DNA from: a virus
Strand: one strand, 5' to 3'
Length of the DNA: 28,813 bases
IMG/VR virus record: IMGVR_UViG_3300021961_000453
Location: 1 to 28,813 of that record
Part shown: positions 4,807 to 27,564 of the stretch, piece by piece
Layout of the letters: the number at the start of each line of letters is the position of its first letter
Numbering within the stretch: the stretch's first letter is position 1
The notes under the pieces: generated by a model
The model's input: only the letters and a program-made list of their open reading frames with translations
What the model was told of the DNA's origin: nothing
The model's database searches: none
Made by a program: the position numbers and the translations under genes

Positions 4807-5282
4807 CCCGCTGTCGGAGCCAACAGTAGCGAGAACACCCAATCAATATAGGCTGCATCACCAGCAACCTCAGGGCTAATCTCCACATGGAACCACTTGC
4901 CTGACGGAGCGCCAGCGACAGTCGGCTTCTTATAATCCGACCACGCTAGACGTGTCACGTTCCAACCCCGCCCGTAAGGAGCGGGGAAATAATCCACAAT
5001 CAGTTCCAAACCGAACGCTTCCCAATTGCGGATAAGGAAATCCATAACAACCAAAGCATCCTCACGATGCTTATAACCGAAATCAATAGCACGCCCCGTA
5101 CCATGAATGCTGGGCTTACCCTCATGGCCACGCTGGTCACGCACCACAAACGTACCAAGATTCGTAATCTTGCCAGCGTTCAAGAACCGCACCCAATCAA
5201 CCAACTTCTGCGTGCCAGCCAAACGCCCCTTAGCAACACCATCAAAACCAGTGTACTTACGCTTCCCACGCCACAACTTCAT
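4779..5282 (-). CDS. Endolysin, M15-type peptidase (D,D-/L,D-peptidase)
   Basis: A 167-residue peptidoglycan peptidase of the M15 (VanY/endolysin) type. The zinc-site pattern is visible: SIHGTGRAIDFGY gives His60 and Asp67, and GKWFHVEI gives His132 with Glu134 close by. The length suits a single catalytic domain without a wall-binding domain. There is no signal peptide, so it needs a holin to reach the wall. ATG 5282 overlaps the stop of the giant virion gene (TGATG); a GTG three bases earlier is also possible. GGGAGAGG just upstream is a good ribosome site. As the last gene of the leftward array it would be made late. A virion-associated role is less likely. Confidence 0.83.
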   Translation of the reverse strand: MKLWRGKRKYTGFDGVAKGRLAGTQKLVDWVRFLNAGKITNLGTFVVRDQRGHEGKPSIHGTGRAIDFGYKHREDALVVMDFLIRNWEAFGLELIVDYFPAPYGRGWNVTRLAWSDYKKPTVAGAPSGKWFHVEISPEVAGDAAYIDWVFSLLLAPTAGHKPSSLSS

Positions 5283-8200
5283 CACGCCTCTCCCTCACGA
5301 GTACGTCGCCGCAACTCAGCCTCACGCTGAGACTCAGTCACCTGACGAACAGGAATACCAAGATACGACAAGATGCTGCCCAACTGCCTGTCGCTGTACA
5401 ACTCCGTATTCGGGGCAAGCCGCTCAGCCTGACCAATAAACGGAATCGCACTCATCAACGAATAATTCAACTTCGGACTCACACCAGTCCCACCAGTCTC
5501 CAGTTCTCTCGTCTGGCCCAATAGGCCAGCGAGAGCCTGAACAGCAGGAGCAAGCGGCCCACCAACAGGCTGCTCACCCTTCTGCCCGAACGGAACATCG
5601 TTATAGAACTTCGTGTTGCTGAGACCGACCTCAACAGGGAGGCGAAGCAACGGGTTCACATCCGACAACAAACGCTTCGGATTCTCCAACATCTTGAACG
5701 TCTCACCAAGGCGGTTGAAACCCAAATCCAACGACAGATACCAGCCGTCAGCAATCTTCACAGCACCCTGCTCCTTCAACCACGAAGGAACAATCTCGCC
5801 CTCTTCAGGCTGACCGAAGTTCTTAATGAAGTTGTTGTAGATAGCATACGCACGCGGGTTCGTCCACTGGTTAATCATCTGCAACGGAAGGTTGCGGGAC
5901 ATCCACATCCAGAACGGAACAATCGCACGGATACGCTCATCAGCCGAACCGACATCCATGTAATCAAACAAGTAGCGCCGCACCCGCGCTGTCGCCGCAC
6001 TGAAATCCATTCCCGATACAGCCGAATCGTACGCCAACATGAAACGCGCCGAACCTTCAACACGTTCACCAATCTGCCGTGACTTACGAAGAATACGGTT
6101 ATCACTCAGGCGCTGACCGCGGCGAGCGAAATCAGCAAACGCTTCCTCCACACGTCCACCGCCTGCCGCCTCCATGGCGCGCAGAGCGGTATTCACACGC
6201 TCCAACTCCGTGCCACTGAACTTAGCCAGCCAATCCTCAATCTTGCCCTGACCACGAATATGCTTCATCAAAGACGTGTACAGTTCCAAACCACGAGCAG
6301 CATTCTTCGGGCTAGCACCAGCAGCAAAAATCATGAACGTGTTACTGATAGCGTTGCGCACATGGAATCCGGGGCTTAACGTCGCATACGCCTTAAAGAA
6401 CTTCGTATACCTAGCCAACAACTTGCCAGCATACGTCTTATTAACACCCGAAGTAGCGCGACGAACATTAGTCAGCATGTCGTAAACTTCACGGGGAGCC
6501 TGCATCCCCGGAAGTCCAATCTTCTCCAACGACTCAAAGCCACGCTCCGTGTACTGCTTAATCTTTTCAACCGTGTCGCCGCGTTGCAACCGTTCAAGAA
6601 TCATCTGCTCACGGTTCAAATCAAACCGCGTGCTCCACAGAGCAGACTCAGCATCTGAGGCTGCGACAAGCACCTTGCTAATCAAACTATTCGGGTCATC
6701 ATTGAACTGCTTCAACGCACGCTGCGCACCCTCACGCCACTCCATCAAAGCGTTGAACTCTTCATCAGTAAGACGTGCCTTCTTAAGGCGGCCAGCGGCA
6801 GCCTTCGTGCCAGCAGCACGGTCAGCAGCCGTCTGCGCCGCACGCTCACGCACCGAAGCAGGAACACCCGTAACAGTCGGACGAGGCCCGAACTTGCCAT
6901 CAATACGGGGCTGAGGAAGAACAGTTGTGCCCTCAAGCAGACTGTTCGCCATAGCAACATTCCTCTCCAGCGAAGGAATCACACTCTCAGCAAACTCGTC
7001 ATAACTCATCGCCACTGCTTGCGCTTGGTCGTAAGCAATCTGAGCCTTAATAGCGGTCTCGCGCAAGGTTTCAACCCGTTGAGTTGCCTTACCAATCTTC
7101 CCGTCAAAGCCAGTAACACCGCCCAAGTCCTTGACCAGACGGCTACGAGCCGACTCAACGGCCTTCTGCAACGAACGCAACTCACGCTCAGCACCCTTGA
7201 TGTCTCCAGCCACAGCGGTACGTTCAGCAGAGATGCCTTCAATCCTGTCCATGATTGCACTAATGCGGGAACGGTCAGGTGCGGCGGCAGGAGCCACAGT
7301 CTCCGCCGCCTTCTGAGCAGCCTCAAACTCGCGCTGCTTAGCGGCAGCCTCGGCAGCCTCATCGGCAGCAGTCTTCAACCTGTCGGCGTGAGTTTCAACA
7401 GCCTGCTTGGAAGAAGAGAAACTGCGCTGTGCCGACTTCTCGGCACGAGCAGCCAACTCATCAACAGTGCTCAACAACTTGAACTCTTCCGTCGTTTCCC
7501 AAGCAGCCTTCAAATTGGCGCGACGCTCAGCAACGACAGAGGCATTGCCAGACAACACGCCCGAAATGTCGTTGCCAGACTTATACCATGCTGGCTGAGT
7601 ACCATTGCCATGGACAAGAATGCGCATCTTCTCAAGGGCAGCAGCCTGCACTTCAGGGCTTTCCACATCTAGCGTAGCGCGAAGACGCGAAGCCTTGCTC
7701 TGCAAATCTTCAATCTCCTGTTGCACCTTGACCATCGCACCACGAACCTTGGCGTACTTGGTCATGTCATCAGGTGTGGCCTTGCCGAAACTCTTCTTGC
7801 GCTCAATGTCGGCAATCATTGACCGACCATTTTCAAGCAACTTGGCTTTATTCTCAATCTGGGAATTAACCCTATCCAACGAATCTCGCGCAGCAAGATA
7901 CGCATCAAAGGCCTTATCTCCCTCGTCAAACTCAGGAGTGGTCTTGCGATACAGAGAACGCCACTCTGCCTCCGTGAAAGACAGCGGCGTACCATCGGGC
8001 ATCATGAGAAGGTCAGCATTGCCAGCCTCATCTTCAACAATGAAACCCTTGACACCATTCGGCAACTCATAGTTGAACAAATCGGTATCAGCCAAATCGT
8101 TCATGGCGTTAACCATGTCCCTATCGTTCAACGCCTTGCCATACAACGGGTCTGTCTTCGCATTGTTCAACGCATCCGTAGCATCATCCATCGCCTTGCG

Positions 8201-11200
8201 TGCAGAACCATCCAAAGGATTCAGACGACCGTTATCGGGCAGAGCAGCGCCAGCGGAACGCAAACGCTGCTCGGCATCAGTCAACATGCGCGCATACAAA
8301 TCATCGGCAGGATTCTGCGCGAACGCCTCCAAAGCATTCAGCACACGCTGAGCACGTTCCAACTCGGGGCCACCTTGCGCCGACAAGCGGGTCACCTCAG
8401 CCCGCCACGACTGACGCATGCTTGCTGTCGCCGCAGAAGCAGCATCAGACAACATCTCTTTAGTGGGCGTCAAGCCCACCTTGCCAAGAGTCGCAACAGT
8501 ATTCACAAACCGCTGATACGTCTCTGACAACGCCTGATACAACGACAACTTCTCGGCCACATCAGCAGCCGACTCGGCAGCCGTACGACCCGACACCACA
8601 GCGGCACGTTCCGCCTCACGAGCGGACGTGCGAGTAAGAGCACGGTCAATATTGCTCAGCCCATCAACAGAGTTGGGCGCAACAATCGCATCCCGAACCG
8701 TGTACACCCTCTCCGAAACGCCCTGACCAACATTCCACTGGCGTTCACCGATGGCGGTCTCAATCTTCCGCAACGCATCATGCAAATCTGCATACGTATC
8801 AATCTTGTTCTTAATGGCAGAATTGATAGCGGCAGCAAAATCGTTATCCTCCGATGTCGCTTTCCTAGCAGCCTTAACATCTTCAGTACGTCCACCAGTC
8901 CCATAACCAGTAACGTCGCTTTCGTCAACCATCTCATCGGACAACTGCGTGAAGGAAGCATCATCAACTTCTGCGGCATTCATCTCAGCCGCAATGCGGG
9001 CAGCAGGGTCTTCGCCTACATCATTCGCAGTTGCGCGAGCGGCACGCTCAGCAATCTGCTGCTCATCCAGAAGCACAGTAACAAGCACGTTCTTGTCCGC
9101 ATCGGAAATCAATTCTTCAGATGTCGCCAACCCGCGAGACTCCAAAGACTCGCGGATAGAACTGAACTTCTTCAAACGCTCAGCGTAAGACTTCGCTTCC
9201 TGCGCCACCAACTCAACATCGGCAGCACGCTGAGTGGCCTGACTGACAGACTGCTCATTGCCAACAATCTCATTAGCGACCTTTTCAAGGTCAGCGCCCT
9301 TCTTGGCATCGGCAACATCAACCGTCTTCGCCGAAGCAGCAGCCTTCTCACGCAACACAGCCTGCTGCGCGCCGTCAAGAGTATCCTCCAACTCCTTGCG
9401 AGCACCACCCAACACATCAGGAATGTCGCCGTCAAAGAACATCTCATCACGAGCAACAACCCACAAACTCGCAGCCCGACCATCCTCAAGACCGCGAGCG
9501 CCATCATTCAACAGAACAGTAACAGTTCCTTCAACACGCTCGGTGTTGAACGTCGCCACACGCGACGGAGACACCTTCGCATCCCCAGCAACCTTCTTGA
9601 AAATAGGGCTGTCTTTGAAACGCTGCTGAATGAAATCAGTAATAGAACCACCAACACGAGCACGCATCGGAGCACGGCCACGCTTAGCCTGACTAATCGG
9701 AGCAGCACCCAACCACTGACCAATATCATTCAAGAACGCAGACTTGCCACTGAACTTCGTGCCGTTCTTAGCAATCTCATAGTTATCAGTCAGCAACTGG
9801 TTGTAACTAACAGAGTCACGCAAACCAGTAATATCTGAATCAATCTTCTTCGCAGCCTCACGAGCCTCAGCCTGAACCTGCTTGCGAGCAGCAACACGCT
9901 CGCCGCTAGCAATGCCACCCTTCGCACGTAAAGCAGTTTCCTCATCAATCAACTGCTGCATACGGGCCTGCAACCCAACAAGACGGGCCTGCACCTCATC
10001 AACCTTCTTCATCACAGGCCCAACAGCAATCGGGAGCGAACCATCAGCACCGACAAGCGCGGTCAGAGTCTGACGATAATTATCCAATTCGTTAGCGGCA
10101 GCGCCCAGTTTCCCTGTCGTCGCCCTCAACGAATCCAAAGCATCAACAGTGGCTGCTCCGCGAGCGGCACGCTCAGCGCCGATAGACGCAATCGTTTGGG
10201 CGGACTCACGACCCAACGTATCAATAGCCTCAACAGCAACCTGTACGGCGTCCTTAGCGCCTATAGCGGCGGACGCCACAGCATCATCCATGCCACCGAC
10301 AACTTTAGCCTGCGCCTTAATGTGCTTAGGGTTAAGAACAACTTCTTCAAGACTCTTCTCGGAGAGCATCTTGATGACTCCGCCGTCAGCCAAATCTTGC
10401 AGACGTGCGACGACACCCATCTGGTCGGCATACTGCTTCACATACTTCTCGGCGACAGCGAGGATGTCCGTCTCAAAGAAGTCACCGACAAACCCGCCAG
10501 AACGAGCCAACTCGTTCAGGCGGTCAACGGTCAAATCGTCCGCAGTCAACTTGACTCCGAACCAGTCGCTGCCCTTCTTCAACTTACGATGATTAAAAAC
10601 AGCAACAGGGTCTAGAGGATTATCAAGGAACTCTGCCACTTCTTTGGAGTAGGCATTGAGACCTTTGTCCATCCACTTGCGCGCATCATCGGTAACCATG
10701 TGCGGGAAGTAATCCTGCACCTGACCAACGCCACCTTCAAAGCCTTGAATCTTTGCGAAACCACCATTGATGTCATCCCAGAAAGAACGGAACACATTAG
10801 TCCAACGCTCGTAAGCCTTCTGCATGACAGGCGAAGCAGTGGCGAGCAACTGCGGATTCTCCAACACCGTGTGCAATGTTTTGCGCACGGACGCCAACTC
10901 GGCTTCTCCACCCTCAGCAAGTGCGGTAGCCACACGACGCTGACCTTCCGTAGATGAACGAGCGGCAACCTGCCGTTCAACATCACGAGAAGTAACGGTC
11001 TTAATAGCAGTGGCAGCCTTTTCGGGAAGCACATCACCGCGCGCCAAAGCAAGACGCATCTCCTTATAATCCAAAGGCGTGAACGCCTTCTGGAAAGCAC
11101 GACCCATCTTCGTGTCCGACAAAGCAACACGAGCCATAGCAAGCGACTTCTCAGCCAGTTCGCCCAACTTGTTAGTTGCGGGCAACTTCTTGCCAAACAT

Positions 11201-11818
11201 GTAAAGCCCAGCACGATTAATGCCGAGACGCTGAATGTCTTCGGCATCCAACGCCGCACGCCCAAAGCGTGCCACCTTGGCCACCTTCGCTCCATCAAGG
11301 CCAGCCTTCTCGGCCATACGAGCCAAAGCGAACCGACCACCCTGCCCAGCAAACTTGCTAGCCCCAAACGTCACATACGTCAACGGGTCAATAGCAACAT
11401 CACCAATGAAACCAAGCGCCCTGTCAACCCACTTGTTGCCAGTCAAATCACCAATGACAGTTCCAAACCCGAACGTCGGGTCACCAATCTGCTTAGTGAA
11501 ATCACCCCAAGACGCAGAAGTCTTAGGGTCAGTGTCAAGAGTGTCAGCAATTTCTTGAATGCCCGACGCAACAGCACGGCCACCCATAGACAGAACGTCA
11601 AGACCCTTGGTGGCAACCTTGCCAATGGGGCTGTCAACGATGCTCTCAACAAGACCGCCCCAGCCACCCTTATCGGCTGCTGGTGTCGGCGCAATCTGCC
11701 CCTTGAAAGCAGAAGAAAGAATGTCTTGGCGGCGGACTACGGCCGAAGCGGGAGTTCCGCCACCTAGAGCCTTCTTATCTTTTTCTAGTTGAGCAAGAAT
11801 CTCATCAAGAGATGCCAC
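5282..11818 (-). CDS. Giant internal virion / ejection protein (2178 aa)
   Basis: A single uninterrupted 2178-residue protein, by far the largest in the window. The N-terminal part (about 100-175) has Gly-rich and hydrophobic segments such as RALGFIGDVAIDPLTYVTFG. The long middle (about 300-1750) is Ala/Glu/Lys/Arg-rich and mostly coiled coil. The C-terminal part (about 1795-2050) holds a conserved core with LSPGFHVRNAISN, then RRYLFDYMDVGSADERIRAI and VPFWMWMSRNLPLQM. This core is familiar from large phage virion and 'polyvalent' proteins. By position (after nozzle and smaller internal proteins) and size it matches T7 gp16-like proteins carried in the head and ejected with the DNA to form a channel. 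I see no lysozyme motif. It starts with GTG (TAGTG overlap) behind GGAGGG. Confidence 0.8.
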   Translation of the reverse strand: MASLDEILAQLEKDKKALGGGTPASAVVRRQDILSSAFKGQIAPTPAADKGGWGGLVESIVDSPIGKVATKGLDVLSMGGRAVASGIQEIADTLDTDPKTSASWGDFTKQIGDPTFGFGTVIGDLTGNKWVDRALGFIGDVAIDPLTYVTFGASKFAGQGGRFALARMAEKAGLDGAKVAKVARFGRAALDAEDIQRLGINRAGLYMFGKKLPATNKLGELAEKSLAMARVALSDTKMGRAFQKAFTPLDYKEMRLALARGDVLPEKAATAIKTVTSRDVERQVAARSSTEGQRRVATALAEGGEAELASVRKTLHTVLENPQLLATASPVMQKAYERWTNVFRSFWDDINGGFAKIQGFEGGVGQVQDYFPHMVTDDARKWMDKGLNAYSKEVAEFLDNPLDPVAVFNHRKLKKGSDWFGVKLTADDLTVDRLNELARSGGFVGDFFETDILAVAEKYVKQYADQMGVVARLQDLADGGVIKMLSEKSLEEVVLNPKHIKAQAKVVGGMDDAVASAAIGAKDAVQVAVEAIDTLGRESAQTIASIGAERAARGAATVDALDSLRATTGKLGAAANELDNYRQTLTALVGADGSLPIAVGPVMKKVDEVQARLVGLQARMQQLIDEETALRAKGGIASGERVAARKQVQAEAREAAKKIDSDITGLRDSVSYNQLLTDNYEIAKNGTKFSGKSAFLNDIGQWLGAAPISQAKRGRAPMRARVGGSITDFIQQRFKDSPIFKKVAGDAKVSPSRVATFNTERVEGTVTVLLNDGARGLEDGRAASLWVVARDEMFFDGDIPDVLGGARKELEDTLDGAQQAVLREKAAASAKTVDVADAKKGADLEKVANEIVGNEQSVSQATQRAADVELVAQEAKSYAERLKKFSSIRESLESRGLATSEELISDADKNVLVTVLLDEQQIAERAARATANDVGEDPAARIAAEMNAAEVDDASFTQLSDEMVDESDVTGYGTGGRTEDVKAARKATSEDNDFAAAINSAIKNKIDTYADLHDALRKIETAIGERQWNVGQGVSERVYTVRDAIVAPNSVDGLSNIDRALTRTSAREAERAAVVSGRTAAESAADVAEKLSLYQALSETYQRFVNTVATLGKVGLTPTKEMLSDAASAATASMRQSWRAEVTRLSAQGGPELERAQRVLNALEAFAQNPADDLYARMLTDAEQRLRSAGAALPDNGRLNPLDGSARKAMDDATDALNNAKTDPLYGKALNDRDMVNAMNDLADTDLFNYELPNGVKGFIVEDEAGNADLLMMPDGTPLSFTEAEWRSLYRKTTPEFDEGDKAFDAYLAARDSLDRVNSQIENKAKLLENGRSMIADIERKKSFGKATPDDMTKYAKVRGAMVKVQQEIEDLQSKASRLRATLDVESPEVQAAALEKMRILVHGNGTQPAWYKSGNDISGVLSGNASVVAERRANLKAAWETTEEFKLLSTVDELAARAEKSAQRSFSSSKQAVETHADRLKTAADEAAEAAAKQREFEAAQKAAETVAPAAAPDRSRISAIMDRIEGISAERTAVAGDIKGAERELRSLQKAVESARSRLVKDLGGVTGFDGKIGKATQRVETLRETAIKAQIAYDQAQAVAMSYDEFAESVIPSLERNVAMANSLLEGTTVLPQPRIDGKFGPRPTVTGVPASVRERAAQTAADRAAGTKAAAGRLKKARLTDEEFNALMEWREGAQRALKQFNDDPNSLISKVLVAASDAESALWSTRFDLNREQMILERLQRGDTVEKIKQYTERGFESLEKIGLPGMQAPREVYDMLTNVRRATSGVNKTYAGKLLARYTKFFKAYATLSPGFHVRNAISNTFMIFAAGASPKNAARGLELYTSLMKHIRGQGKIEDWLAKFSGTELERVNTALRAMEAAGGGRVEEAFADFARRGQRLSDNRILRKSRQIGERVEGSARFMLAYDSAVSGMDFSAATARVRRYLFDYMDVGSADERIRAIVPFWMWMSRNLPLQMINQWTNPRAYAIYNNFIKNFGQPEEGEIVPSWLKEQGAVKIADGWYLSLDLGFNRLGETFKMLENPKRLLSDVNPLLRLPVEVGLSNTKFYNDVPFGQKGEQPVGGPLAPAVQALAGLLGQTRELETGGTGVSPKLNYSLMSAIPFIGQAERLAPNTELYSDRQLGSILSYLGIPVRQVTESQREAELRRRTREGEA

Positions 11819-22116: not shown

Positions 22117-23709
22117 TTACCTCTCGCCACGGACATTATATGCCCCAATAGGAACACGTTTAAATGGTGCTTCTTCGCTAATAATGAACTTTTCAAACCA
22201 ACCAAGACTGTAAGCGGGCGGGGGTGCGTCCACCCGATACTCGGGCAGCCATACATACTTCATCATCTGCCACCCAATAGCCAGCGACATGACACGGTCG
22301 TCATGCGGAGAACCATTCATACGCCCGTTCGCATTGCGAACAAACGTAATCAACTCCTGAATTGTATGGTCATCCGACAGGGCAATATCCCCATCTCGGA
22401 TAGCAGCAGCCAACTCGTCAATCGCCAGCGGCTTCGTCGCTGTCGTCGTACGCCAACCAAGAATCTCTGTAGCCTCAGGGTTCCGCTGCTGCAAACGACG
22501 GGTGCGGTAGAGGTTCTTGTAGCCATACCGTTGAAGAGCCTTCAATGTGGTCAGACCATGGTTGTTGTTCTCAACACCGAGTAGTGCGCCGTTGTACCAG
22601 AAACCTATTTCGGCGAGAAGGTCGCCGAAAAGGTCAGGCTCAATATGACCATGCCAATGCGCAACTACTTTGTGCGATTGTGCTTCAATTACATGGGCAG
22701 AAGAATAGTCGCCATACGACAAACCCTCAGCAACGTCAGCGCCAATCACATACACAGCATCAGGGCGAGGACGCTCATAAACAGCGAACTCGCCATCAGG
22801 AGTTATCCTCAACTCAATATTCTTCTTGCTGAGCACATGCACATAACCCCGCTCAGGATGCTCAACCTGCAAAGCACGTAGAGCATCCACATCAAACACG
22901 GGGTTACCCGACTTGATGAACGCTTCCTCGGGGCTACGCGGATATTCCTGATGCAACTGCCATGAAGGCATAGATTTCTCTTTAGCCTCATACCAGTCGT
23001 CGTCACGGTCGCCAGCCGACCACGGCCAGAAAATACCCTTAAAGTTGTTCGTTCCAGTTTGCGACCCAGTCCATAGATGATGAAAGAAGTTGCCCGAACC
23101 GTTCGCCGTACTCAAACAAATAACACGACCACCAACGTCAGCAATAGGCTCAATAGAAGCCCACGCCTCTTCGCTATTCGGCAAGAACGCCATCTCATCC
23201 ACAATCACCAAATACACCGACTCACCACGAGCAGGGTCATTGCCAGACGGCAACGACTCAATAGCCGACTCGTTAGCAAACGTCATCTTCAACTGGTTAT
23301 CCGAAGTTAACTGAGGGCCACGTTGCTTCATCCACTGCGGAAGAAACTTGTAGCCATACTTGGACTTCTGCAACAACTTCGCTGCTTCACGCTCCGTGCG
23401 TGAAAGCATGACGATGAACCTATCGGGCCAGAAGAACCCAAGCCAGAAAGCGTAGGCGGCAGCCAGAGTGGAGAAACCAATCTGACGTGCCTTCAGAACC
23501 ACGCTATAACGGTTGGACATCCAAGCACGAATAGTTTCTGTCTGCGCTTCACGCAACTCAAATAGAATACGTCCACGTTCTGGATGTTTAATCGCCCAGT
23601 AGTTCTCACAGAAGTAAGCAAACGCGCTTACAAGTTCGTCAATACTGGCGTCGGAAGGGCCGCGACAAGCGCGCCATTCCTTCTCGTTGAGAAGTTCAGA
23701 TAAATCCAT
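22117..23709 (-). CDS. terL: Terminase large subunit
   Basis: A 530-residue packaging motor with both domains intact. The ATPase has a Walker A-like LKARQIGFST (72-81), Walker B YLVIVDEMAF with Asp171/Glu172, and the coupling motif STANGSGNFF (200-209). The RNase H-like nuclease has Asp325 in GADVAEG, Glu380 in GVENNNHG, and Asp470/Asp471 in GSPHDDRVMS. It pumps DNA through the portal and cuts concatemers. It follows the repeat protein gene by one base and is separated from the small subunit by the tail-fibre block, an uncommon order. Confidence 0.97.
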   Translation of the reverse strand: MDLSELLNEKEWRACRGPSDASIDELVSAFAYFCENYWAIKHPERGRILFELREAQTETIRAWMSNRYSVVLKARQIGFSTLAAAYAFWLGFFWPDRFIVMLSRTEREAAKLLQKSKYGYKFLPQWMKQRGPQLTSDNQLKMTFANESAIESLPSGNDPARGESVYLVIVDEMAFLPNSEEAWASIEPIADVGGRVICLSTANGSGNFFHHLWTGSQTGTNNFKGIFWPWSAGDRDDDWYEAKEKSMPSWQLHQEYPRSPEEAFIKSGNPVFDVDALRALQVEHPERGYVHVLSKKNIELRITPDGEFAVYERPRPDAVYVIGADVAEGLSYGDYSSAHVIEAQSHKVVAHWHGHIEPDLFGDLLAEIGFWYNGALLGVENNNHGLTTLKALQRYGYKNLYRTRRLQQRNPEATEILGWRTTTATKPLAIDELAAAIRDGDIALSDDHTIQELITFVRNANGRMNGSPHDDRVMSLAIGWQMMKYVWLPEYRVDAPPPAYSLGWFEKFIISEEAPFKRVPIGAYNVRGER

Positions 23710-23710
23710 T

Positions 23711-24526
23711 TTAGTTCTGTCTAAGCCAAATCTTATCCTTGGGCGGATAGCCCACTGGAACGATACGCCTCATCATGATTGTGCTATCCAAACCTTGCCC
23801 GCCATTTACCCAAAGAGCAACATCCACGCCACCAGCACCATCGCCAGATGCGGAACGCTCTATCAGTTTCCCGCTGACAACATCAGAAGTGCCGCTACCG
23901 CTAGAAGTTGCGTCACGGTAAACCGTGCGCAACTGAACAACAATAGAAGAACCAGTGCCAAATGAACTGGCCGTAACTACTGCGATGCGAACGCCCGTGG
24001 CGGACGAAGAACCAGTGCCACTGCCAGAAGCAGAAGCAATAGTTAACTTCAGTCCACTAGCACTAGCAGTACCAGCGCCAGAACCAGTGGCGGAACGAAT
24101 AGAAACAACAATCCGTGTCGCTGCACTGGAACCAGTACCGCTAGCGGAAGCATCAACAATTGCGGTACGTAGACCAGTTGCTGTTGAGGAGCCAGTGCCA
24201 GAACCAGATGCTGATTCTAGATGGGACACAGCACCGTCAGCGGTGCTTGTTCCTTGCCCACTCGCCGTTGCGGTACGCAACCTAGTGATTAGACCAGAAG
24301 CGGAAGACGTTCCAGCGCCAGAAGCGGTCGCTGTAGCGACGACAGTGCGAAGACCTGAGGCGGTTTCTGTTCCCGTGCCACTGCCAGAGGCATCGCGGAG
24401 TTTGGTTACAACTCCCGTTGCCGACTGGGTTCCTGCGCCACTGCCCGTAGCAGTGCGCAATGGCATACCCTCATACGTGAACGATGTGTTCTCGTATAGT
24501 TCTAAGGAATCGTATAATGCCGCCAT
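23711..24526 (-). CDS. Tail-region protein of eleven tandem 20-residue repeats
   Basis: A 271-residue protein. Residues 21-240 are eleven consecutive repeats of exactly 20 residues with no insertion or deletion. The consensus is roughly L-R-x-A-[ST]-[GA]-S-G-[TA]-G-[TS]-x-[ST]-A-[ST]-G-[LV]-x-x, with Gly at 30, 50, 70 and so on to 230. Regular Ser/Thr/Gly turns and alternating small hydrophobics suggest a beta-solenoid with one 20-residue coil per turn. The first 20 residues and the last 30 (IVPVGYPPKDKIWLRQN) are non-repetitive caps. It lies in the fibre block, so a fibre shaft, decoration or host-surface binding protein is likely. AGGAAT lies before the ATG. I know of no named family. Confidence 0.7.
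   Translation of the reverse strand: MAALYDSLELYENTSFTYEGMPLRTATGSGAGTQSATGVVTKLRDASGSGTGTETASGLRTVVATATASGAGTSSASGLITRLRTATASGQGTSTADGAVSHLESASGSGTGSSTATGLRTAIVDASASGTGSSAATRIVVSIRSATGSGAGTASASGLKLTIASASGSGTGSSSATGVRIAVVTASSFGTGSSIVVQLRTVYRDATSSGSGTSDVVSGKLIERSASGDGAGGVDVALWVNGGQGLDSTIMMRRIVPVGYPPKDKIWLRQN
23807..24466 (-). repeat. Eleven 60-bp coding repeats (20-residue period)
   Basis: The codons for residues 21-240 of the repeat protein form eleven units of 60 bases in perfect register. Units share protein sense (GSGTGSS/GAGT cores) but have diverged at synonymous and many other positions, so this is an old array kept by protein structure rather than a fresh DNA expansion. Similar units could still recombine and change the array length. 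Confidence 0.8.
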
Positions 24527-24527
24527 G

Positions 24528-24734
24528 TTAGATTCCTAGCGGTAGAGACTCCTGAGTGCCGAACAAATCATATTTGACAATGATTTCTTCAGCCCATGCA
24601 CGCGCGCCTTCTTCGTTGTCCCACGGTCCAGGCCAGTCGATGAGTTTGTCGTTGTTGTAGACATTGACATAAAAGGTATCGGTAACTTCTGCCCGATATG
24701 GACCGCTAACGAACGAATGAATAATCATGTTCAT
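24528..24734 (-). CDS. Small hypothetical protein
   Basis: A 68-residue protein from ATG 24734, which overlaps the stop of the upstream gene (ATGA). The sequence has a strand-rich first half (GPYRAEVTDTFYVNVYNNDK) and a helical second half (NEEGARAWAEEIIVKYDLFG). This looks like a small alpha/beta domain with conserved Trp residues (WPGPWDNEEGARAWAEE). A longer frame from 24818 would lie inside the neighbouring gene. It sits between tail propeller genes and the repeat protein; the role is unknown, possibly a fibre chaperone. Confidence 0.55.
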   Translation of the reverse strand: MNMIIHSFVSGPYRAEVTDTFYVNVYNNDKLIDWPGPWDNEEGARAWAEEIIVKYDLFGTQESLPLGI

Positions 24735-24994
24735 CGTGACGAAACAACTCCTGCCGAATGACAAAGCCCATTCGGTACTGGCATGGTAATACCATTCAAA
24801 CTTCCAGCAGTCACCCATGCAGTGCCGTTGGCTGATACCTGAAAATCACCATCATCCTGCAATACCAAAATGCGGTTTGCATCATCAACAGCAATAGAGT
24901 TATAAATCAGATTGCCGCCCGTATCTGCGGGTGTTCTATCTCCCCACGATGTTCCATTAGTCGAACTTTGGATATTGAATACTGACCCAGGCAT
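24731..24994 (-). CDS. Small beta-propeller-like fragment protein
   Basis: An 87-residue protein starting MPGSVFNIQSSTNGTSWGDR. The pattern (SSTNGTSWGDRTP, then ILVLQDDGDFQVSANGTAWV) matches one to two BNR-like propeller blades of the kind filling the upstream 254-residue gene. It is in a different frame, and a stop lies just upstream in its own frame, so it is a separate gene now. It may supply missing blades to the upstream protein or form an oligomeric propeller. GAGGGAT precedes the ATG. Confidence 0.6.
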   Translation of the reverse strand: MPGSVFNIQSSTNGTSWGDRTPADTGGNLIYNSIAVDDANRILVLQDDGDFQVSANGTAWVTAGSLNGITMPVPNGLCHSAGVVSSR

Positions 24995-25004
24995 TATCCC
25001 TCAC

Positions 25005-25769
25005 TTAGTTATTTGTAGCAATAATGATTGTTGAACTATTAGATGCGAACTGTTGGTTTACTGCCGCGCTATTAGGAAGACTTCGGGCTGTCCATGTGTT
25101 GGGCGTAGATGCACTGGCTATGGCGTTTGTCGTTGAGTTTGTGTCTGAACCAATCACCCAAAGTGAAACATTTGAGAAATATTCAGACACAACATTCTCG
25201 CCAGTTCCCAATGTTGTGCCTCCCGAGCCAGAGGCTACCCGTGTCCATGTCCCAGTTACACTTGTTGCATAAATCAAGTCGCCGTTATTCCCACCGACAA
25301 CCCAATAGCCATTACCATACTTGGGGGCAGAACCAACAGAGGTCGCGGGAGAAAACGATGCGACAGAAAACTGTGTCCATGTTGCACCATTATCTGTTGA
25401 ATACGCAAGTTTGCTTGTACCAACAGCAACCCATTCTTTATTTCCATACCCAACTGAAAAGATTGATGTTGTGCCACCAAACGACGATGTTCGTTGAGTC
25501 CAATCTATGCCATTGTCGCTTGTAGCCAACTTGCCACTCGCGCCAACAGCAACGAATCTACTTCCACTAGAAGCAATGTTATAAATCGCAGTACTACCAA
25601 AACTGGATGTTCTGTCTGTCCAAGTCATTGACGATGAGGGCAAATCCGTTGATGTTTGCATCGCGCCAGACGACCCGACGACGACCCACATATACGGCAG
25701 TTTGCCCTTCTTCGCACCAAATCCTAAAGCGCCAGCCGAAGCGTTCGCACGAGTACCAACAAGCGGCAT
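25005..25769 (-). CDS. BNR-type beta-propeller tail fibre/spike protein
   Basis: A 254-residue protein built from repeats of the type RFVAVGASGKLATSDNGIDW, TQRTSSF and EWVAVGTSKLAYSTDNGATW, which is the BNR/Asp-box pattern (S-x-D-x-G-x-x-W). At least four blades are visible between residues 28 and 230. The N terminus (MPLVGTRANASAGALGFGAK) is a short linker. Asp-box propellers occur in sialidases and in phage spikes that bind surface sugars. I see no clear catalytic set, so a binding role is more likely. It follows a fibre protein and precedes a small gene with similar blades. Confidence 0.65.
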   Translation of the reverse strand: MPLVGTRANASAGALGFGAKKGKLPYMWVVVGSSGAMQTSTDLPSSSMTWTDRTSSFGSTAIYNIASSGSRFVAVGASGKLATSDNGIDWTQRTSSFGGTTSIFSVGYGNKEWVAVGTSKLAYSTDNGATWTQFSVASFSPATSVGSAPKYGNGYWVVGGNNGDLIYATSVTGTWTRVASGSGGTTLGTGENVVSEYFSNVSLWVIGSDTNSTTNAIASASTPNTWTARSLPNSAAVNQQFASNSSTIIIATNN

Positions 25770-25778
25770 AAACGACCC

Positions 25779-26462
25779 TTACTTGAACTGTGTCTGCGAA
25801 GCAAACACCGTATACGTCGGGGCCGTAGTACCCGGATTTGGGTCAGCAGTTTTCACAATCGTCAATGAATAAACATCAATAGACGACGCATTTCCAGCAG
25901 TCGGGGCCGTGCCACCCTGCCATTTGGCGGTTACTGTTACCTCATAGTTGGTGGAAGCGTTATCAATCTTGATGACGTTTGGATAGTAGGCGGTGGTGCC
26001 ATTTGTGTTCGCCCACACAACAGTAATTGAGTCACCAATCGCAAGCAAACTAGAAAGCGTGGTTGACGAGTTGCCACGAATATTCAACGTGTGGTTTGCC
26101 GTCGCATTGCTGGTGTAATACCAGACGCTTGCAGTATTGACATCCATGTTCACAGTGCCAGTAGCGGCAGTAGCCGAAACGTTCCAAGTCTCCTCGGTTT
26201 CCTTCAGCACAGCACCATTGATAACAGGGGCAGTCAAAGTCTTATTTGTCAACGTCTGCGTACCAGTCAATGTCGCAGCCTGAGCAACCTTATAATCCAA
26301 ACTGGTAGTAACGGCAGAACTATCAACACCAACCTTGGCTTGCAAAGCCTCAATAGCGTCGTTCGCATTGGCGTGCTGCGCCGAATGCGACGGGTTATTA
26401 AGCGCATCACCGCTCGCAGGGTTAGTTAGCGCATCAAGCGACGTGGGGAAGTTAGTGGCCAT
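25779..26462 (-). CDS. Tail fibre protein
   Basis: A 227-residue fibre protein with a widespread environmental-phage N terminus: FPTSLDALTNPASGDALNNP then SHSAQHANANDAIEALQAKV. A short trimer-like helix is followed by LTGTQTLTNKTLTAPVING, a beta-rich linker typical of fibres, and a C-terminal beta domain (about 95-227) rich in Thr, Asn and Ala with WYYTSNATANHTLNIRGNS. The N terminus likely attaches to the tail and the C-terminal domain reaches outward. It is encoded between two other tail proteins. Receptor specificity cannot be read. Confidence 0.8.
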   Translation of the reverse strand: MATNFPTSLDALTNPASGDALNNPSHSAQHANANDAIEALQAKVGVDSSAVTTSLDYKVAQAATLTGTQTLTNKTLTAPVINGAVLKETEETWNVSATAATGTVNMDVNTASVWYYTSNATANHTLNIRGNSSTTLSSLLAIGDSITVVWANTNGTTAYYPNVIKIDNASTNYEVTVTAKWQGGTAPTAGNASSIDVYSLTIVKTADPNPGTTAPTYTVFASQTQFK

Positions 26463-26465
26463 TGA

Positions 26466-26828
26466 TTAGTCCAGCGTCAATGTGAGGCTAGTAATCTGGA
26501 AAGTGTCGCCAGCCGAAACGGAGGCTGACGACGAAAGAGCGCCCGACCACAGGCAGTTGCCAGCAGACGAAGCATCCCACAGCGAGAAATGAGAATACGT
26601 TTCAGTTGCAGAGACGTTCGTCCACGTAACCGAAGCCGACGAAGCCATAGACCCGCTAGCAGCAGACGAAAACGAAATAGCCTGACGAGTCGTATTGGAC
26701 GCGGCGTTAGCCGTCCCATCCTCACCAGCGTCGCCAGTATGCAACTTCACATAGACGGCTGCCACCGCCAAAGACTGGTTGCGGAGCGTATCCAGCAACT
26801 TGTTCTCAAGATAGTTAGAAATGCTCAC
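26466..26828 (-). CDS. Putative tail-associated structural protein
   Basis: A 120-residue protein starting with GTG at 26828 (MSISNYLENKLLDTLRNQSL). The order is an N-terminal helix, VYVKLHTGDAGEDGTANAAS, TRQAISF, then VTWTNVSATETYSHFSLWDA, GNCLWSGAL and DTFQITSLTLTLD. This follows a common small phage family (helix, LHTxDPGE, Y.RQ.I.F, H..L.DA..G..L..G.L, GDTF.I) usually found beside tail fibres. It forms a single beta-sandwich-like domain. It may be a fibre-base or baseplate-like component. Its start overlaps the stop of the zinc-ribbon gene before it. Confidence 0.65.
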   Translation of the reverse strand: MSISNYLENKLLDTLRNQSLAVAAVYVKLHTGDAGEDGTANAASNTTRQAISFSSAASGSMASSASVTWTNVSATETYSHFSLWDASSAGNCLWSGALSSSASVSAGDTFQITSLTLTLD

Positions 26829-26965
26829 TCAAAGTCTCCACAAGAATCATCGGCGGGTTCACCATCACAACACGAATCCTTAAACCCACAGTTAGGACAC
26901 CGCCAACGGCAAGCCGTGGGCGGATACTCCTCACCACAGTTCAAGCATTCAACTAAAGAACCCAT
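26825..26965 (-). CDS. Tiny zinc-ribbon protein (46 aa)
   Basis: A 46-residue frame from ATG 26965 to TGA 26825-26827, reading MGSLVECLNCGEEYPPTACR and continuing with a CPNCG motif. The pairs CLNC and CPNC make a complete zinc ribbon, followed by SCC and a short acidic tail. It fills the 140-base gap between the terminase small subunit and the tail-associated gene and overlaps the latter's GTG start (GTGA). The coding case rests on the paired Cys motifs and fit; function unknown. Confidence 0.65.
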   Translation of the reverse strand: MGSLVECLNCGEEYPPTACRWRCPNCGFKDSCCDGEPADDSCGDFE

Positions 26966-26968
26966 TCG

Positions 26969-27403
26969 TTACATCGCCTTAAGGTGCGAAACCCGAGCCT
27001 CCCGCTCACGGGAAGCCATAGCAGAAATCAGTTCATCCAACTCTTGGTCAGACAACTCCGCTGTAGCACGTTCAGACTTAACAGTCACCGTAGGCGGAGC
27101 CATACGGTTAGTCGCCTGAAGATACAACTGGGCGGCCTTGATATCCCCAGTCAACGCCCTGTCGTAGAGCGTATCCAACAGTCGTTGGCTCCGCTCAGGC
27201 GACCCTTGAACGTCGTCTACGCGGGATTGCCATGCTTTGCGGAATACGTCCTTTTTCTCCCATCGGCGGAGCGTGGTGACATTCACACCGATGGAAGCGG
27301 CGTAAGCCTCTTTGCTGGCTGGCTCACGTTCCTGAGGGGGTGTGCAAAGCCACCCGATGTACGCCTCTTGGCGGGCGTCCAAAATGTTTTCTTCTAGTGC
27401 CAT
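26969..27403 (-). CDS. terS: Terminase small subunit-like HTH protein
   Basis: A 144-residue helical protein from ATG 27403 (TTG codons lie upstream in frame). Near residues 30-55 is a helix-turn-helix with SKEAYAASIGVNVTTLRRWE. It is followed by helices with SQRLLDTLYDRALTGDIKAA and QLYLQATNRM, a pattern found in small terminase subunits that read GDxxAAxLxLxxTGRM. The C terminus (QELDELISAMASREREARVS) is a charged helix. It would recognise the packaging site and recruit the large subunit. It is the first gene of the leftward array. A transcription regulator is the main alternative. Confidence 0.78.
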   Translation of the reverse strand: MALEENILDARQEAYIGWLCTPPQEREPASKEAYAASIGVNVTTLRRWEKKDVFRKAWQSRVDDVQGSPERSQRLLDTLYDRALTGDIKAAQLYLQATNRMAPPTVTVKSERATAELSDQELDELISAMASREREARVSHLKAM

Positions 27404-27564
27404 CAACAACAGGATTCCTCGTTACCTCGGTCTCCTGTTTCACTTGTTCACTATGTAACGGGTAACGCTAAGGATAGGGGCCATATAGTTATCCAGTCGC
27501 TAGCCCAGCGCCGCGACTGGATACAGTAACTAGTTAAACGAGAGCGACGACAGGAGCGGCGACA
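27404..27564. promoter_or_regulatory. Divergent intergenic control region
   Basis: About 160 bases between the leftward virion array and the rightward small-protein genes. It must hold promoters for at least one direction. CGTTACC (27420-27426) and GGTAACG (27461-27467) form a 7-bp inverted pair, with a further GTAACG at 27455-27460, so these may be operator half-sites. TATAGT at 27484-27489 is a possible rightward -10 element, but I see no good -35. A hairpin lies at 27490-27523. The ribosome site of the first rightward gene is AGGAG before 27565. Confidence 0.5.
27490..27523. other. Inverted repeat with 11-bp stem in the divergent region
   Basis: TATCCAGTCGC and GCGACTGGATA pair perfectly (11 bp) around a 12-base GC-rich loop. 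Neither side has a U-run, so it is unlikely to be a simple terminator. It may be an operator, a transcript leader structure or part of a packaging/replication site. Confidence 0.6.

Follow-up and report, generated by a model that had tools for sequence, protein, structure and literature searches.

Analysis of a 28,813-nucleotide stretch of uncultured-virus DNA (IMG/VR record IMGVR_UViG_3300021961_000453, positions 1-28,813; hereafter the window) revealed that the gene at 23711-24526 on the minus strand belongs to a real, conserved repeat family without a named function, whose repeat type is new but of an ordinary kind. Judging from the sequences of the 271-aa product and its relatives, we consider it probable, at roughly 60%, that this protein is a structural part of the virion, forming a beta-rich shaft or spacer of variable length in a neck or tail appendage. 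Three parts can be distinguished along the protein: a Tyr-rich N-terminal segment with the pattern Y-x6-Y-x-G (residues 1-20, 24467-24526), an array of eleven 20-residue units, the last of which is half degenerate (residues 21-240, 23807-24466), and a lineage-specific C-terminus that starts with DVALW and overlaps the end of unit 11 (residues 235-271, 23714-23824), all on the minus strand.

The sequence-only reading had divided residues 21-240 into eleven blocks of exactly 20 residues without an indel, and this division was confirmed. We found zero indels in the array and autocorrelations of 0.44, 0.41 and 0.50 at lags 20, 40 and 60, far above the best value at any lag from 5 to 40 in 2000 shuffles of the same residues, which never exceeded 0.23. 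That every block carries the same core and end held only in part: the core S-G-x-G-[TS] is exact in nine of the eleven units, but the end A-[ST]-G-[LV] in only six. A6, G10 and G12 are invariant in all eleven. At its end, unit 11 has already passed into the C-terminal motif conserved in the window's lineage, and the family profile scores ten units in this protein. As had also been proposed, the DNA of the units has diverged while the period persists in the protein. Unit-to-unit DNA identity is 0.53 at codon positions 1 and 2 but 0.31 at third positions; since the latter equals the 0.305 expected from composition, the DNA repeats must be old and the period kept at the protein level. An antisense open reading frame of 194 aa runs across the array (23955-24539, plus strand) and is likely a by-product of repeat codon use.

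We compared the period with those of known fibrous and repeat proteins. Collagen-like fibres carry Gly at each third residue, and the autocorrelation at lag 3 was 0.04. The T4 gp5-type triple beta-helix has an octad period and the adenovirus-type triple beta-spiral a 15-residue period. Both are beta shafts built from repeats, as proposed for the present protein, but the period here is 20, with no peak at lag 8 (0.14, below the 0.19 and 0.20 at lags 6 and 10) or at lag 15 (0.08). RTX repeats recur every nine residues and pentapeptide repeats every five; the values at these lags were 0.05 and 0.08, and neither type was matched in Pfam. A two-times-ten pseudo-repeat within the unit was rejected, as the lag-10 match was no better than other even shifts.

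The sequence-only reading had not recognised the repeat family. No function has been assigned to them, but the family itself already exists as PHROG 23524, which lacks functional annotation. The window protein matches this profile over its repeats (E 2.4e-30), as do all 24 members of our alignment A1; the last part of the profile matches a stand-alone C-terminal domain of another lineage, which the window protein does not have. Neither the window protein (Pfam, NCBIfam) nor the 24 members of A1 (Pfam) gave a match above cut-off, and searches of Pfam, NCBIfam and PDB sequences turned up neither a named relative nor a homologue of solved structure for the repeat protein. The PDB sequence search with the repeat protein returned two weak chance matches (E 0.2 and 1.3), and those with the C-terminal profile and with the relative L179 returned nothing of use. 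Searches of INPHARED found nothing, either with three repeat proteins as tblastn queries, for which the BLAST low-complexity filter may hide repeats, or with one C-terminal-domain query. None of 265 pattern stretches in GTDB genome contigs was confirmed as a relative. A literature search by peptide, repeat description, PHROG numbers and UniProt accession, subscription journals being outside its scope, found no paper on the family.

Profile searches of viral metagenomes, by contrast with these databases, yielded many relatives. In IMG/VR, the window protein retrieved 53 loci, an alignment of the main C-terminal domain 424 confirmed loci (of which the best 80 were used), and an alignment of the repeats at least 363 confirmed loci (again the best 80 were used). 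Merging gave 209 loci with 138 unique repeat ORFs, 127 of them complete; two loci, L001 and L054, carry the window's own repeat gene. The number of units per protein ranges from 5 to 21 among the 127 complete proteins. Of the 1059 unit spacings in these proteins, 900 are exactly 20 residues, so that the absence of indels holds for the window protein but not for the family, in which 46 spacings are 22 and six are 21 residues. Among longer spacings, 45 of 42 residues and nine of 41 probably each contain a unit that escaped detection; most of the others reflect inserted modules. Across 1016 unique units, which were chosen by the family profile so that the conservation figures lean high, we counted G10 in 996, G12 in 916, R4 in 870, A6 in 865 (with Gly in 105 more) and G8 in 837. 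Positions 6, 8, 10 and 12 are small in 97-100% of these units, and the odd positions 5, 7, 9, 13 and 15 are mostly Thr or Ser, position 11 in about half. The unit thus alternates Gly/Ala at 6, 8, 10, 12 and, less strictly, 16 with a mostly Thr/Ser opposite set, followed by a more hydrophobic stretch (positions 19, 1 and 3) and a near-constant Arg4.

In the window, the repeat gene lies in a minus-strand fibre block (22117-27409) flanked by a probable small terminase gene (26969-27409; phrog_2538, E 2e-6) and the large terminase gene (22117-23709), the latter directly downstream of the repeat gene. A fibre block between small and large terminase genes is an uncommon arrangement. The order is probable small terminase, a Gp80-family virion protein (26466-26828; PF23140, named GP4 fibre I in Pfam, E 1e-30), a fibre-like protein (25779-26462; phrog_5906), a BNR-like gene in two pieces (25005-25769 and, in another frame, 24731-24994), a 96-aa protein (24528-24818), the repeat gene, large terminase and portal. 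Towards its C-terminus, the phrog_5906 protein is similar to cyanophage proteins whose annotation reads sericin 1 precursor-like or tail fibre. A BNR propeller gene had been reported beside the repeat gene; the BNR, DUF6242 and sortilin matches of the gene concerned are weak and all below Pfam cut-offs, and it is split into ORFs of 254 and 87 aa (24731-25769), whereas its counterpart in L002 is a single open frame of 326 codons (1329-2306). Elsewhere in the window, a 2178-aa ORF (5282-11818, minus strand) perhaps encodes a large internal virion protein, to judge by its size and place.

Linkage to Gp80 is conserved in the family. Among loci retrieved with the repeat protein, the repeats or the C-terminus, 98 unique ones have 2.5 kb or more of upstream sequence; in 96 of them (all but L136 and L088) a Gp80 homologue lies upstream of the repeat gene, in 52 within 100 bp of it. 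Gene maps of 12 relatives place Gp80 before the repeat gene in every case, directly in L024, L150, L182 and L196, whereas further genes intervene in the remaining eight. Where the stretch extends far enough, Gp80 is itself preceded by a capsid-like gene, only that of L013 being identified by profile. We found the L013-type capsid gene in 113 of the 138 unique loci; among the 65 that have over 3.5 kb of upstream sequence it occurs in 60, the exceptions being L001, L005, L141, L148 and L171. A window-type terminase or portal was detected in five of the 138 (L001, L002, L141, L148 and L171), while 20 show neither the L013-type capsid nor window-type genes in the stretch covered. With one capsid type in so many of the loci, much of the Gp80 linkage reflects shared descent within a single lineage, to which one further context is added.

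The two genome contexts differ in the C-terminus of the repeat protein. Of the 127 complete unique proteins, 117 have the domain of the main lineage (...NVYKLTDGTY...YGGH...AGYGAYIT) fused to the repeats, one (L008) has it in a frame of its own, and nine lack it. The window protein lacks it and so falls outside the main lineage. The five loci with window-type genes also lack it and have in common another C-terminus starting with [DE][VL][AG]LWxNxG; the domain is further missing from L005, L006, L180 and the short L043. On these comparisons, two phage lineages have both the repeats and Gp80, each with a C-terminus of its own. In 10 of the 12 maps, the gene immediately downstream of the repeat gene encodes the main C-terminal domain by itself, at about 94-98 aa (for example L025:6816-7100 and L003:2564-2854; 158 such ORFs before clean-up). 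In L013 a glycosyltransferase-like gene (7383-8498; phrog_2170, E 2e-18) follows the repeat gene, and ORFs of like length and place were seen in L004, L024, L025, L028, L150, L182 and L196.

The relatives of Gp80, although distant, suggest where on the particle the repeat protein may be located. The window Gp80 matches PDB 8jou (E 3e-9), which we take to be the podophage GP4 entry, 9c39 chain K (E 6e-9) and 9mt4 (E 4e-8). Chain K of 9c39 is 100% identical to FDI99_gp126 in the Sf14 record, which Table 1 of PMC11821841 gives as gp31, the whisker protein; according to that paper, gp31 dimers complete whiskers of the Sf14 neck that are attached via gp30 and the adapter (PMC11821841). As these Gp80 relatives belong to neck or tail-side appendages, the repeat protein is likely a partner there and may bind Gp80. 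GP4 fibre I and Sf14 gp31 are akin to the present system in that their homologue is the usual partner of the repeat gene, but Gp80 and the repeat protein are separate proteins. We detected no repeat ORF in the examined stretches of Godines (L057), Manatee Spring podovirus (L055) and CRP-738 (L056).

A short aromatic N-terminal segment is shared beyond the repeat proteins. The pattern F..[PAFG][FY].{3,6}[FY][FY].[GS] gave 124 matches in 210 repeat ORFs, duplicates and inner copies counted, and 91 in other forward ORFs. Of these 91, 88 lie at the start of a protein of about 617 aa (phrog_11667), two in cut pieces of it and one elsewhere; shuffled ORFs gave none in 904,176 residues. These counts document sharing rather than unbiased discovery, since the pattern was written after both sequences had been inspected. 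The phrog_11667 protein (L013:9523-11364, L025, L028 and others) opens with F..PF....FY.G and carries no functional annotation. Among the 127 complete repeat proteins, 48 N-termini match the pattern, 31 a looser one and 48 neither. The window N-terminus matches neither and holds Tyr-x6-Tyr-x-Gly; it is closely similar in four of the five proteins of its lineage, the exception being L148. Docking at one and the same site might explain why repeat proteins and the phrog_11667 protein have this segment in common.

Between two close relatives, the repeat protein is less conserved than capsid and terminase. Between the window and L002, identity is 97% for the capsid, 87% for large terminase, 84% for the portal and 82% for Gp80, but 59% for the repeat protein; other diverging genes are scaffold (71%), fibre (70%) and BNR (43%). 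Both repeat proteins have 271 aa. Identity is 100% for unit 1, 95% for unit 2 and only 25-80% for units 3-11; at the DNA level, only window units 1, 2, 5 and 11 have the L002 unit of the same number as their closest counterpart. Such fast unit divergence with the register kept is what would be expected of an exposed part. Relatives can differ by whole units: a single 22-residue unit, flanked on either side by matching DNA (89-92%), separates L145 from L153, and an extra 102-residue block (4x20+22) is present in L171 relative to L141, with flanks at 77% and 84%. In 31 gene pairs that share a segment of at least 250 bp at 85% or more and differ in length by at least 18 bp, no difference was an exact multiple of 60 bp and four were a multiple plus 6, so that clean whole-unit changes account for the smaller share of these pairs. 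More often the change is of another sort, for example an exchange of N-terminal or inserted modules. In L179 (3065-4921), a CBM_4_9 domain follows the first unit in frame (E 7e-13, above cut-off). No other insert in the 127 complete proteins exceeds 62 residues; the Pfam domain scan of relatives covered A1, L179, L044, L150 and parts of L010 and L025.

The beta-solenoid put forward by the sequence-only reading, with one coil per 20 residues, was not established, and as a monomeric fold it is a tentative possibility that falls clearly short of even odds, although such a fold could still serve as a shaft. Structure prediction of the monomer, evaluated by AF2 secondary structure and VIA-align matches, cut both ways. 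The AF2 model of the window protein, built from 24 sequences, aligns to parallel beta-helices (tailspikes and SufB, Z 13-14), but its mean pLDDT is 44.3 and its pTM 0.34, with no residue above 70. In the relative L025 (34 sequences), only the C-terminal domain comes near a pLDDT of 80; the repeats are at about 30. The best matches of this model, both presumably solenoids, are 4opw (Z 8.0, rmsd 7.5) and 3ult, an ice-binding protein (Z 3.2, rmsd 8.4). According to PMC11795689, AF2 turns perfect random repeats into beta-solenoids that it predicts with confidence but that are unrealistic, among them a case with a 20-residue S/T-rich unit at pLDDT 90. In view of this bias, low-confidence solenoid models count for little, although the repeats here are imperfect. 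Foldseek against BFVD gave three matches at E <= 0.001 for the L025 model (A0A1B0XU09, A0A6J5N885 and A0A1B0XUF0) and none for the window model, the top one being A0A1B0XU09 at 1.1e-3. We take the A0A1B0X accession series to come from uncultured freshwater phages; the BFVD model of A0A1B0XU09, a likely family member, agrees poorly (TM 0.39 and 0.28). The likeness of the window protein to phage tailspikes with a parallel beta-helix, such as that of 9NA, consists in this low-confidence alignment and extends neither to a sequence match nor to a confident fold.

The units themselves give a similarly divided answer. The strong period and the alternation of small with Thr/Ser residues suit a solenoid, and at variable columns a unit resembles its immediate neighbour slightly more than units farther off (0.243 versus 0.218-0.227 at two to four units apart). 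Covariation between adjacent units is strong for chain neighbours, with some same-column signal (column 2, z 11.9; column 18, z 6.4), but these two columns also covary three units apart (6.0 and 6.8), and we found no general coil-stacking signal in adjacent units (same-column mean 2.6 versus 2.4 for the rest). The two-residue inserts appear to fall between positions 10 and 15, inside an AF2 strand, which also speaks against a solenoid. The alternation of Gly/Ala with Thr/Ser fits beta-strands with one tightly packed face. Small-residue beta folds of silk-like and insect antifreeze proteins have one face of Gly/Ala and the other of Thr/Ser, as do the repeat units, but show no sequence match to the window protein. 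We rank an oligomeric beta shaft level with or above a single-chain solenoid, and either of them above a disordered linker. A flexible, unstructured S/T/G-rich linker from anchor to tip would agree with the low-complexity composition, the low pLDDT and the varying repeat number; it would not need a near-constant G10 (996/1016), exact 20-residue spacing (900/1059) or mostly even-numbered inserts, and we regard it as unlikely. More doubtful still is that the array is a receptor- or sugar-binding surface in its own right, a Thr/Ser ladder rather than a spacer. Thr/Ser at alternate positions from 5 to 15, less so at 11, the CBM in L179 and the unit divergence between close relatives could be read in this way, but no ice- or sugar-binding family matched the window protein in Pfam or PDB sequence searches, and the L179 CBM suggests that binding can fall to inserted domains. 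We think it improbable that a gene within the fibre block encodes something other than a virion protein, such as a host-modifying protein: no enzyme family in Pfam or NCBIfam matched the repeat protein, and adjacency to Gp80 is kept in two different genome contexts.

A virion shaft is our preferred reading. The role of fibre shaft that had been suggested for the protein is backed as that of a probable virion appendage part by linkage to Gp80 and often to fibre genes, by CBM_4_9 in L179 and by identity below that of capsid and terminase. In such a shaft, the Tyr/Phe-rich N-terminal segment would probably be the docking end. The array would form a stiff rod whose length is set by the number of units, which does vary among relatives, and the lineage-specific C-terminus would join or end the rod. 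The Gly/Ala faces may allow tight packing of beta-strands, perhaps between the chains of an oligomer, on the model of other phage fibres, and not only within a single-chain solenoid. More speculatively, and at long odds, the family could represent a novel type of viral fibre shaft. Its 20-residue units would assemble into an oligomeric beta rod in which Gly/Ala forms a packing face like that of silk while Thr/Ser faces outwards; the rod would change in length by units, could carry inserted sugar-binding domains, and would dock via an aromatic N-terminal peptide common to many members and the phrog_11667 protein.

The family is widespread in IMG/VR, with hundreds of confirmed loci at least and no named function, and is good material for structural work. 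If the protein is indeed a shaft built from exchangeable units, with a place at which binding domains can be carried, it would be a clear case of phages tuning the length and reach of their appendages, and would offer a compact test of how far structure predictions for short, glycine-rich repeats deserve trust.
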